Below, piece after piece: positions 25,791 to 28,563 of a stretch of DNA of 64,000 nucleotides (its first letter is position 1; each line of letters begins with the position of its first letter). Where the stretch lies: NCBI RefSeq assembly GCF_013002715.1, contig NZ_JABENB010000001.1, positions 2,294,001 through 2,358,000 of the forward strand, read 5' to 3'. Origin of the DNA: Flexivirga aerilata. Lineage in GTDB: Bacteria; Actinomycetota; Actinomycetes; Actinomycetales; Dermatophilaceae. The notes under the pieces were generated by a model. That model ran no database searches. It had not been told where the DNA came from and saw only the letters and a program-made list of their open reading frames with translations. The translations under genes were made by a program, and so were the position numbers.

Positions 25791-27083
25791 CTACGGCGTG
25801 ATCCGGTGCAGGTCGCGCGGGAAGAGCGTGACTTCCCGGACGTTCGCCGCGCCGGTGAGCCGCGCCACCCAGCGCTCCAGCCCGATCGCGAAGCCGCCGT
25901 GCGGCGGCATACCGTGGTCGAACGCCTCGAGGTATGCCGAAAACGCCTCTGCCGACTGGCCATTGGTCGCCAGCGCAGCGCGGTAGTCCGCCGGTCGATG
26001 CAGCCGCTGCCCGCCGGTGCTCAGCTCCAGCCCACGGAAGAGCACGTCGAAGCTGTTCGACCATCGTGGGTCGTCCGGTTGTGGATGGGTGTAGAACGGC
26101 CGCTTCGCCATCGGGTAACCCTCCACCACGAGAAAGTCCGACCCGTGCTCCTCCTTGGCCCACGCCCCGAGCGCGCGCTCGTGCGCGGGCTCCAGGTCGG
26201 GCTCGTCCTCCGCGGCCCCGACACGTCGCAACGCGTCCCGAAAATGTATGACGGGCAACGCTTCCGGCACCTGCGGGACGTCGACGCCGAGCAACTCCAC
26301 CGCGTCGGCGGCGCGCTCCCGGACAGACCTGAGCATGCCGGCGAGCACGGCCCGGAACATCGCGATCACGTCGTGGTGGTAGTCGATGAAGCCGAATTCG
26401 ACGTCGAGAGAGGTGTATTGGGCCAAGTGACGCACGGTGTCGTGCGGCTCGGCACGAAACACCGGGCCGACCTCGAAGACCCGCTCGAAGACACCCACGA
26501 GCATCTGTTTGTAGAGCTGCGGAGACTGCGCCAGGTAGGCCGCTCGACCGAAGTAGTCGAGCTCGAAGACGTTGGCGCCGGACTCGGTCGCCATGCCGAC
26601 CAGCTTCGGCGTGGCGATCTCGGTGAACCCCGCACTCTCGAGCGTGGTGCGGAAACCGTGGACCGACGCTGCCGCGAGCTGCCAGGATGCCCGGCTGCGG
26701 GGGTGGCGTAGGGCCACAGCGGCATGGTCGAGGCGGGTCGGCAGTCCTTCCTGCGGCGAGGGCCGCCAGAGCTGCACCGGCGGGGTGAGCGCGGGCTCGG
26801 TGATTGGTGCGAGCCGGGTGCCAACCACCTCGAGGCCGCCCGGCGCTGCCGGGCTGGCGGTCAGCATGCCGTGGACCGTGACGACCGACTCCTCACCCAG
26901 CGCCGCCACCGCCGCGCGGAGACCGCCGTCCTTCACCACGACTTGCGCGAGACCCGAACGGTCCCGCAACACAAGGAAACTCACGCCCGACAACTGTCTG
27001 CGACGATGCATCCACCCGGCGAGGGAGACCTCGGATCCGATGGGGGTCGCCGCCAGCTCTGCGGCCAGGATGCGTTGTTGCAC
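25791..27083 (-). CDS. Aspartyl-tRNA synthetase, archaeal/eukaryotic type (possibly non-discriminating)
   Basis: Class IIb aminoacyl-tRNA synthetase of 430 residues. The N-terminal OB-fold anticodon domain is seen in LAGWMHRRRQLSGVSFLVLR. The catalytic core has TPKLVGMATESGANVFEL (motif 1 region), AYLAQSPQLYKQM and a motif 3-like GGFAIGLERWVARL at the C-terminus. It lacks the GAD insertion of bacterial AspRS and has archaeal length. A His in GWMH, where discriminating archaeal enzymes have Trp (from memory), hints at a relaxed enzyme that also charges tRNA-Asn. The GTG at 27083 is chosen because GGAGGTG lies 6 nt upstream; a TTG at 27101 would overlap that site. The leader carries a T-box riboswitch. 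Whether a bacterial-type AspRS exists elsewhere is unknown. Confidence 0.9.
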   Translation of the reverse strand: MQQRILAAELAATPIGSEVSLAGWMHRRRQLSGVSFLVLRDRSGLAQVVVKDGGLRAAVAALGEESVVTVHGMLTASPAAPGGLEVVGTRLAPITEPALTPPVQLWRPSPQEGLPTRLDHAAVALRHPRSRASWQLAAASVHGFRTTLESAGFTEIATPKLVGMATESGANVFELDYFGRAAYLAQSPQLYKQMLVGVFERVFEVGPVFRAEPHDTVRHLAQYTSLDVEFGFIDYHHDVIAMFRAVLAGMLRSVRERAADAVELLGVDVPQVPEALPVIHFRDALRRVGAAEDEPDLEPAHERALGAWAKEEHGSDFLVVEGYPMAKRPFYTHPQPDDPRWSNSFDVLFRGLELSTGGQRLHRPADYRAALATNGQSAEAFSAYLEAFDHGMPPHGGFAIGLERWVARLTGAANVREVTLFPRDLHRITP

Positions 27084-27089
27084 TGCTTT

Positions 27090-27240
27090 CACCTCCGGCA
27101 AGAATCAACTCCCCGGCAGGTGTGGGCGATGGGGCCAACGTCGCGGTGCCACCACACCTTCGCCGCGGCGAATGCCGCGGCCTCTTGTCGTGCGATCGGC
27201 TCGGGGGCGTCACTCCCGTCATCGCCGTGCGGCGAGATTA
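27090..27240 (-). promoter_or_regulatory. Translational T-box riboswitch of the AspRS gene
   Basis: Read on the minus strand, this leader holds each part of a short-Stem-I T-box. A TAATCT -10 box (27240-27235), 18 bp after TTGCCG (27264-27259), predicts a start near 27228. A GGCG/CGCC hairpin (27226-27206) has GAC, an Asp codon, in its loop. A 7-bp hairpin (27180-27163) follows. The T-box sequence GUGGUGGCACCGCG (27155-27142) matches 11 of 13 defined consensus positions. It forms an antisequestrator: AGGUGUGG pairs with CCACACCU (27125-27118), the 7-nt bulge is UGGCACC, and GCG pairs with CGC. The alternative hairpin CACCU-G-CCGG/CCGG-AGGUG (27122-27090) buries the ribosome site. The variable base C suits tRNAs with G73, as tRNA-Asp has. 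Confidence 0.82.
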
Positions 27241-27304
27241 GGTCGGCCGGCGGACGCACGGCAACCGGATTTCGCGGGTGGCCTCGCGTCGGGTGTGACC
27301 ACGG

Positions 27305-27349
27305 CGGGTGTGCCGGGTAGGTCGGGTATGCCGGGTACGTCGGGTATGT
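27305..27349. repeat. Five tandem 9-bp repeats (CGGGTATGT-like)
   Basis: CGGGTN followed by three variable bases recurs at 27305, 27314, 27323, 27332 and 27341 with an exact 9-bp period. The array lies 50 bp upstream of the citrate synthase ATG and upstream of the predicted AspRS promoter on the other strand. It may be a binding array or a simple tandem expansion. Confidence 0.6.
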
Positions 27350-27399
27350 CGACACCGTCAAGATTGACCGGTCCCGGCGCACGGTCGCACGCTGCGGGC

Positions 27400-28563
27400 A
27401 TGACCACATCAGCAACCACCGAACCCATCGTCACGCCACCGGGATTGGCCGGCGTCATCGTCGCGCAGACCGAGATCGGCGACGTGCGCGGCGCCGAGGG
27501 GTTCTTCCACTACCGGCAGCACGACGCCACCGGCCTCGCGCGCGAGCGGACCTTCGAGGACGTCTGGCACCTGATGCTGCACGGGGAGCTTCCCGAGGGG
27601 GAGCGGCGCGCTGCGTGGGCGGCCGAGGTGGCCGAAGCTCTCGTCATACCAGCGCAATTGCGGGAGCGGTTGATCGCTGTCATGCGAGCGAGCGGGGGTG
27701 CCGATCCGCTGGTCACCCTGCGGACGGCGCTCTCGGCATACGGCGCGCTCACCGACGACCGGCCGCTCTGGGACAGCGACGAGCAGACCAAGCAGCGCGC
27801 CGCCCTGCGCACGGCAGCCGTGGTGCCGTGGCTGGTGACCGCGGCGCACGCGCTGGCGAACGGTCGCGAACCAGCCGCTCCGCGGCCCGAACTCGGTTAT
27901 GTCGGAAGCTATCTCGCGATGCTGACCGGCAGCACCCCGAGCGCGCGACACGTCGCCGCGCTCAGTCGCTATCTCGTGCTCACCATCGACCACGGCTTCA
28001 ACAACTCGACCTTCACCGCCCGGACGGTGGCGTCCACCGGCACCGACCTCACGTCGTGTCTCGTCGCGGGGGTGGGTGCGCTGGCCGGCCCGCTGCACGG
28101 CGGCGCCCCGAGCAGGGCTTTGGACGCCCTGGACGAGATCGGATCGGTGGAGCGCGCCGAGGGCTGGGCGCGCGCGCAGCTCGCCGCCGGTCAGCGCGTG
28201 ATGGGATTCGGTCACGCCATCTACCGTGGGGTCGATCCGCGCTCGGAACTGTTGAAGGAGACCGCGATTGAGCTCGGCGGTCCGACGGCGGAGCTCGCGG
28301 TCGCGGCCGAGTCCGAGGTGGTCAAGGTGCTGGACGAGGCGAAGCCGGATCGCCCGTTGCGGGCCAACGTCGAGTATTACGCCGGCGTCGTGATGGACGC
28401 GTGCGGTGTCCCGCGCGAGATGTTCACCCCGACTTTCGCTTGCAGCCGGGTCGTCGGGTGGACCGCGCACGTGCTGGAGCAGAGTCACGATCGCAAGATC
28501 ATCCGCCCGGGCTCGCGCTACGTCGGTCCGCTGCCCGACGCGGTCTCGGCCCGCCCGGTGTAG
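27400..28563 (+). CDS. Citrate synthase / 2-methylcitrate synthase family protein
   Basis: Condenses an acyl-CoA with oxaloacetate; 387 residues, the short form of the family. Active-site histidines are visible in LAGPLHGGAPSRA and MGFGHAIYRGVDPRSE. The third catalytic residue, normally Asp in NVD, is Glu here (ANVEYYAG), a variant seen in some paralogues, so whether it uses acetyl-CoA or propionyl-CoA is unclear. The ATG at 27400 is taken as the start; no strong ribosome site precedes it. The last 46 bp overlap the convergent HTH-citrate synthase gene, an unusual arrangement for two paralogues. Confidence 0.9.
   Translation: MTTSATTEPIVTPPGLAGVIVAQTEIGDVRGAEGFFHYRQHDATGLARERTFEDVWHLMLHGELPEGERRAAWAAEVAEALVIPAQLRERLIAVMRASGGADPLVTLRTALSAYGALTDDRPLWDSDEQTKQRAALRTAAVVPWLVTAAHALANGREPAAPRPELGYVGSYLAMLTGSTPSARHVAALSRYLVLTIDHGFNNSTFTARTVASTGTDLTSCLVAGVGALAGPLHGGAPSRALDALDEIGSVERAEGWARAQLAAGQRVMGFGHAIYRGVDPRSELLKETAIELGGPTAELAVAAESEVVKVLDEAKPDRPLRANVEYYAGVVMDACGVPREMFTPTFACSRVVGWTAHVLEQSHDRKIIRPGSRYVGPLPDAVSARPV

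Follow-up and report, generated by a model that had tools for sequence, protein, structure and literature searches.

A putative translational T-box riboswitch of reduced architecture for tRNA-Asp upstream of a second, archaeal-type aspartyl-tRNA synthetase gene in Flexivirga aerilata

The window analyzed here is a 64,000-nt stretch of the Flexivirga aerilata genome (GCF_013002715.1, contig NZ_JABENB010000001.1, positions 2,294,001-2,358,000), and all features described below lie on its minus strand and are given in window coordinates. An aspartyl-tRNA synthetase (AspRS) gene occupies 25791..27083, starts with GTG at 27083 and encodes a 430-aa enzyme of the archaeal type (aspartate--tRNA(Asn) ligase type), which in a family scan matched NF003483 at 533 bits (cut-off 353) and reached 357.7 bits against TIGR00458, just under the cut-off of 368.4. 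The nearest named relative in a protein search was from Flexivirga meconopsidis (87%). An AspRS gene at this place had been recognized in the initial sequence-only reading, which missed both its archaeal type and its status as a second AspRS. A different contig of the genome carries a housekeeping bacterial-type aspS, which has no T-box; gatB is present too, and the gene in the window is a second, extra AspRS beside aspS. Such genes are rare: protein searches stopped at E 1e-120, with more distant AspRS outside their counts, found the archaeal-type gene in 17 of 396 genomes of the order and in 2 of 396 genomes of the phylum (own genome counted in both). Bacterial-type aspS was also found in 22 of the 25 genomes with the archaeal-type gene, the other three being genomes that are just 81, 58 and 88% complete. 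One genome (G152) contains two archaeal-type copies (L105 and L117) with nearly identical leaders, one with an in-frame TAG.

The leader in front of the gene runs from Stem I through the start-codon region (27228-27081). A candidate promoter (27235..27264), TTGCCG at 27264-27259 and TAATCT at 27240-27235 with 18 nt between them, lies exactly where it had been reported and would place the transcript start near 27229. Measured against E. coli promoters, both hexamers are weak, and a generic promoter scan found none; in 16 of the 19 short-Stem-I leaders tested, several of which are near twins, a TAnnnT box nevertheless starts 12-15 nt ahead of Stem I, as against 0 of 228 overlapping control windows. 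If this box is the promoter, there is no space for a longer 5' domain. Stem I itself (27196..27228) is ultrashort at 33 nt and consists of a lower helix CGGC/GCCG, a K-turn signature (3-nt bulge, GA opposite GA), a GGG/CCC helix and an 8-nt loop, AGUGACGC. The GAC triplet at 27209..27211, read as an Asp specifier complementary to the anticodon GUC and recovered by pattern match in orthologues, sits in this hairpin as first described. Among the 19 short-Stem-I leaders with a K-turn (12 distinct), the GA/GA signature and UGAC are invariant, and compensatory changes occur in one lower pair (GC/AU/CG) and one upper pair (GC/AU). Stem I has no elbow-binding upper part (IDTM), and neither Stem II nor a IIA/B element was found in the window form; their site in other classes is taken by a single-stranded linker with the purine string AAGAG (27182..27195), which leaves 11 nt from Stem I to the GAG preceding Stem III. 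Nine relatives share this minimal layout, with about 9-11 nt between Stem I and GAG/GAGG (the spacing of L011 was computed as 16, counted to a later GAGG, and is 10 by eye), giving ten minimal leaders in all. AAGAG and GAA in the window fit the purine string by Stem III (RRRxG, AA), the 5' part of which varies in other groups. Thirteen further leaders (L025, L106, L107, L109, L110, L115, L116 and six in front of bacterial-type aspS) have a short Stem I without an evident K-turn and share a conserved middle segment like CGCGCGU..CGGCGUACCGACGAGAGG.

Downstream of the linker, Stem III (27162..27181) forms the hairpin GCCGCGGC-AUUC-GCCGCGGC, whose stem, initially counted as 7 bp, has 8 bp and is supported by covariation. 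It is followed by the antisequestrator, in which the 8-bp helix A1, AGGUGUGG/CCACACCU (27159-27152 with 27125-27118), and the 7-nt bulge UGGCACC (27151-27145) agree with the sequence-only reading, while the upper helix A2 is the 4-bp GCGA/UCGC (27144-27141 with 27129-27126) and not the 3-bp helix proposed there. The T-box sequence, given earlier as 11 of 13 positions at 27155-27142, is indeed present; its core, GGTGGCACCGCG at 27153-27142, fits all 11 defined positions of GGTGGNACCGCG. The window holds a single copy of this core, where 0.16 would be expected in a shuffled window, and a single copy of the full antisequestrator pattern (as taken from the window itself), which appears in 0 of 100 shuffles. 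A core covariance model (33 rows, window included) gives the leader 74.3 bits, while its second-best site in the window reaches 23 bits. A 9-bp sequestrator with one bulged G, CACCU-g-CCGG paired to CCGGAGGUG (27122-27113 with 27098-27090), buries the ribosome site GGAGGUG (27096-27090), which ends 6 nt before the GTG at 27083; this hairpin stands as originally drawn. Positions 27122-27118 are common to the 3' strand of A1 and to the sequestrator, and the two folds are mutually exclusive. A terminator search of 26900-27500 found none, and transcription attenuation was therefore set aside for the window. The leader is thus in keeping with the translational T-box first proposed here, but not with a complete one, as the elbow-binding part of Stem I and Stem II are both lacking, an absence that had gone unnoticed in the initial reading. 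A suggested scan with the Rfam T-box model (RF00230) gave no match in the window, even at E 10, and sub-threshold sRNA and CRISPR-repeat matches, reaching at most about half of their cut-offs, were dropped.

Orthologue leaders were assembled from a first protein search (11), searches of the order and phylum (15) and named loci (9), giving 35 in total. The leader is present in 26 of 26 loci from the protein searches (window included). Out of 80 named loci, 15 were read upstream and ten have a T-box, one of which (L021) comes from the same genome as L005, so that the nine kept were chosen for having the element; no such leader stands upstream of the five more distant loci L091, L096, L097, L098 and L100. 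One GGTGGCAC(C/A) motif occurs at the expected place in each of the 35 leaders, and all 35 keep the A1/A2 fold along with GAC in Stem I (by pattern) and the UGGCAC bulge, letters that the search pattern fixed but that matched in every locus tried. The last bulge base is A instead of C in 13 of the 35, the window not being among them.

Covariation of the antisequestrator and sequestrator helices across orthologues had been put forward as a check, and it was assessed on 34 of the 35 leaders (33 distinct; L112 omitted as a twin of L024). For Stem III, A1 and A2 together, 97.4% of cells pair, compared with 92.0 (sd 0.4) after shuffling and only 33.7-49.7% when partners are slid by 1-3 columns, and changes on both sides occur in 9 of 15 pairs (2.2 in shuffles). 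Stem III alone has 96.2% of cells paired, and three of its four outer pairs changed on both sides. The A2 pair next to the bulge (27144 with 27126 in the window) is G-C in 31 of 33 and A-U in two, and never G-U. A G-U wobble at the base of A2, a feature of the glyQS type, has been described as the sensor of 3'-aminoacyl tRNA and is called conserved in PMC7583486; in our judgement it is not family-defining for T-boxes. The antisequestrator thus bore out the proposal, whereas covariation of the sequestrator is weak: both-sided change was seen in one of seven pairs, and 51 of 500 shuffles reach its paired percentage and 24 of 500 its score. Its 3' arm is the ribosome site, and we relied instead on how well the Shine-Dalgarno (SD) sequence is buried relative to shuffled arms.

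In the segment after A2, the SD sequence has an unpaired probability of no more than 0.01 in 29 of the 35 leaders, among them every one of the 26 that have a short Stem I. Shuffling the upstream arm gives means of 0.12-0.50 across leaders; for the 29 SD-burying leaders, values this low turn up in 0 to 15 of 100 arm shuffles. The SD sequence is not buried in the computed fold of the remaining six (L007, L026, L027, L028, L029 and L075), all with a long Stem I; by eye, L075 has a terminator-like hairpin with a U-run. The 160-nt leader of the window folds with the sequestrator formed, and in all ten minimal leaders the antisequestrator lies 4.5-7.9 kcal/mol above the free fold, so a ligand must pay the difference. 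According to these computed folds, the leader can take two exclusive states with OFF as the default. A further contact may act on this balance, as the A2 loop and the strand immediately downstream of A1 are complementary (in the window CCCC 27134-27131 with GGGG 27114-27111, a possible pseudoknot within 27111..27134 suggested by covariation between groups) and the two strings change together (CCCC/GGGG, CCCG/CGGG, GCCC/GGGC, CCCUU/AAGGG). The mean loop-flank score of 52 distinct leaders is 12.62, against 11.87 (sd 0.28; 2 of 500 reach it) with swapped flanks and 9.08 (0 of 500) with shuffled flanks. Since part of the flank G-run is paired in the OFF hairpin in many short-Stem-I folds, we infer that the loop-flank pseudoknot serves as a clamp of the ON state.

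Relatives of the window leader connect it to T-boxes of the full kind. Among 20 loci scanned, only the orthologue leader L075, from an Anaerolineae genome, matches RF00230 (104 bits; gathering threshold 93). Of eight further long leaders, six have matches that fall short of the cut-off (72.8 to 36.6 bits, E 8e-14 to 2e-4) and the other two, L006 and L007, have none at E 0.1; the Rfam alignments of L027, L028 and L026 place GAC in the specifier loop. With long orthologue leaders matching the Rfam T-box, the series therefore runs from full T-boxes through intermediates to the form in the window. In a protein tree of 51 rows (L117 and L224, with short or missing proteins, left out; architecture labels assigned by eye; L233 on a very long branch), the ten minimal leaders fall into two groups, each beside a relative with a long Stem I: the first, made up of the window and L005, has L006 as its sister (99/97), and the second, with the other eight, has L007 (94/81, not starred). 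Given the starred branches, the minimal label has to change twice, and the two groups differ in their Stem I loops, AGUGACGC and CCUGACGA. If a long Stem I, once lost, cannot come back, parallel truncation is the simplest interpretation; if it can, the two truncations are not independent. Short forms are also present in the nearest outer groups of the tree, which by itself therefore gives no direction.

Truncation could also mean decay, i.e., a T-box that, having lost Stem II and the upper part of Stem I, no longer binds tRNA and instead sets constant low expression through its buried ribosome site. The sequestrator state favored in all ten computed minimal leaders would fit this, as would accounts of ileS T-boxes, in which a truncated Stem I without Stem II hardly binds tRNA (available text of PMC10482949 and PMC7583486). 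Decay should, however, release GAC and UGGC first, whereas UGAC, the K-turn GA/GA, UGGCAC and the A1/A2 pairing are intact in ten of ten minimal leaders, Stem III changes by compensation across leaders and the minimal form occurs in two separated groups. We consider decay improbable compared with a working T-box that responds to tRNA-Asp.

The specificity of such a T-box was approached through the genes that follow it. ARAGORN, run on 36 of the genome's 46 tRNA matches, found one tRNA-Asp, whose anticodon GUC and G73-CCA end are complementary to GAC and UGGC; the bulge base C fits G73, as had been predicted. A model of the ten minimal leaders (window included), searched against 396 genomes of the order, found 24 places at E <=1.5e-6, all before AspRS (18 archaeal-type, 6 bacterial-type) and including all 17 carriers from the protein search. 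At E <=0.01 it gave 30 matches, the six beyond these being weak ones elsewhere (L179-L183, L185), which do not precede AspRS and were taken as chance after one look, as were the matches L236, L238, L239 and L240 of the core model (E 2.5e-4 to 0.0084 for all of these). L237 (E 0.003) does stand before AspRS; its short Stem I carries GAC, and an apparent Stem II comes next. GAC is present in six of six leaders of bacterial-type aspS, an enzyme non-orthologous to archaeal-type AspRS; in these cases (L171, L173, L174, L175, L176 and L178) no archaeal-type gene was found, and the start codon is further downstream than in archaeal-type cases. When the core model was applied to 28 housekeeping aspS loci, the T-box was found in these six (61.7-70.1 bits) and in none of the 22 from archaeal-type carriers, where the best score, 25.8 bits, lies inside the gene. 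In 22 of 22 genomes where both enzymes were found, the T-box is thus on the second AspRS and not on housekeeping aspS; the switch goes with the reserve enzyme.

Across 394 genomes of the class, the core model gave 23 matches at E <=6.8e-5, of which 20 precede archaeal-type AspRS (most identified by translated N-terminus, not by family scan), two precede bacterial-type AspRS and one, L234, precedes a seryl-tRNA synthetase (TIGR00414, 362.6 bits; cut-off 301.65) and has the specifier UCC and the bulge UGGC. The L234 leader has a long Stem I by eye. Actinobacterial T-boxes therefore stand before two non-orthologous kinds of AspRS and a SerRS, and with GAC before both AspRS types and UCC before SerRS, the triplet follows the enzyme. 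A leader whose SD hairpin alone responds to a signal other than tRNA, such as temperature or the AspRS protein, would account for neither this pattern nor the Rfam-matching long T-box leaders of orthologues, and it leaves GAC, UGGC and Stem III unexplained. Although an SD-burying hairpin by itself is common, we regard such sensing as highly improbable.

Taken together, the element is very probably a translational T-box riboswitch for tRNA-Asp of reduced architecture, placed before a spare AspRS, with tRNA binding and regulation deduced from the leader and its relatives. Evidence on the other side comprises the failure of the window to match RF00230, the lack of a G-U pair at the base of A2, the A-ending bulges of 13 leaders, the weak sequestrator covariation, the five distant loci without such a leader and the reported binding behavior of ileS T-boxes. 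By default, the 3' strand of A1 would pair with the SD sequence and keep the gene off. Uncharged tRNA-Asp would use its anticodon GUC to pair with the Stem I triplet GAC and its GCCA 3' end to pair with UGGC of the bulge, and these two contacts would hold the antisequestrator, free the ribosome site and turn the spare AspRS on; the 3' end of charged tRNA-Asp could not be seated and the gene would remain off. Because Stem I has no elbow-binding part and Stem II is missing, only the two end contacts would hold the tRNA, perhaps aided by the K-turn and by the ON-favoring loop-flank pseudoknot. In a variant of this T-box reading, the switch works only with a helper replacing Stem II, for example a K-turn-binding protein. 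The invariance of the K-turn signature in 19 leaders would suit such a helper and K-turn proteins are discussed for T-boxes in the available part of PMC7583486, yet nothing in the sequence demands one, and we consider the variant rather unlikely. A conserved natural form with neither anchor allows the minimal needs for holding and interrogating a tRNA to be tested directly with an RNA of ~150 nt, and a minimal T-box may also suit engineering.

The reduced architecture matches no T-box class that we found described. In the portions available of the T-box literature, including PMC7778990, PMC7583486, PMC10651847, PMC10482949, PMC1262725 and PMC2494555, we found neither an actinobacterial AspRS T-box, though single sequences may be in TBDB, nor a T-box without both anchors (elbow motif and Stem II). 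"At least four" classes are distinguished in the accessible text of PMC10482949: class I with a long Stem I and Stem II; class II with a long Stem I and no Stem II, glycine-specific and generally acting on transcription; class III with a short Stem I and a required Stem II; and class IV with an intermediate Stem I, otherwise like class III. The codon-anticodon contact is described as reinforced by the Stem I elbow motif, Stem II or both (same text and that of PMC7583486). The predicted form in the window fits none of classes I-IV and may be the smallest natural form of the T-box class. On balance we lean towards a fifth class, in which a short Stem I without elbow motif or Stem II would have arisen by at least two truncations of a long-Stem-I ancestor, charged and uncharged tRNA-Asp would be told apart by codon-anticodon and 3'-end pairing alone, and a loop-flank clamp would assist; we would then know of no smaller natural T-box.

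The described classes resemble the window leader in different parts. Orthologue leaders L075, L027, L028 and L026 are of the full class I kind (RF00230) and carry GAC, whereas the window leader has no upper Stem I, Stem II or IIA/B and does not match RF00230. The class II T-box of Bacillus subtilis glyQS likewise has a single-stranded linker in place of Stem II, but its Stem I is long with an IDTM and it is glycine-specific, in contrast to the 33-nt Stem I and GAC of the window. By eye, L006, L007 and L023 combine GAC with a long Stem I and no Stem II, i.e., the class II shape for another amino acid. SD-sequestering like that in the window is a feature of the actinobacterial T-boxes of Seliverstov et al. 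2005 (PMC1262725), which the available text reports upstream of ileS. The class III ileS T-boxes of Nocardia farcinica and Mycobacterium tuberculosis share with the window a short Stem I with a K-turn and an apical-loop specifier, Stem III, a UGGN bulge, an antisequestrator competing with an SD sequestrator and an actinobacterial host. They differ in amino acid (Ile vs Asp) and loop size (5-6 nt vs 8 nt), and class III requires Stem II with an S-turn and the IIA/B pseudoknot, both of which the window leader dispenses with.
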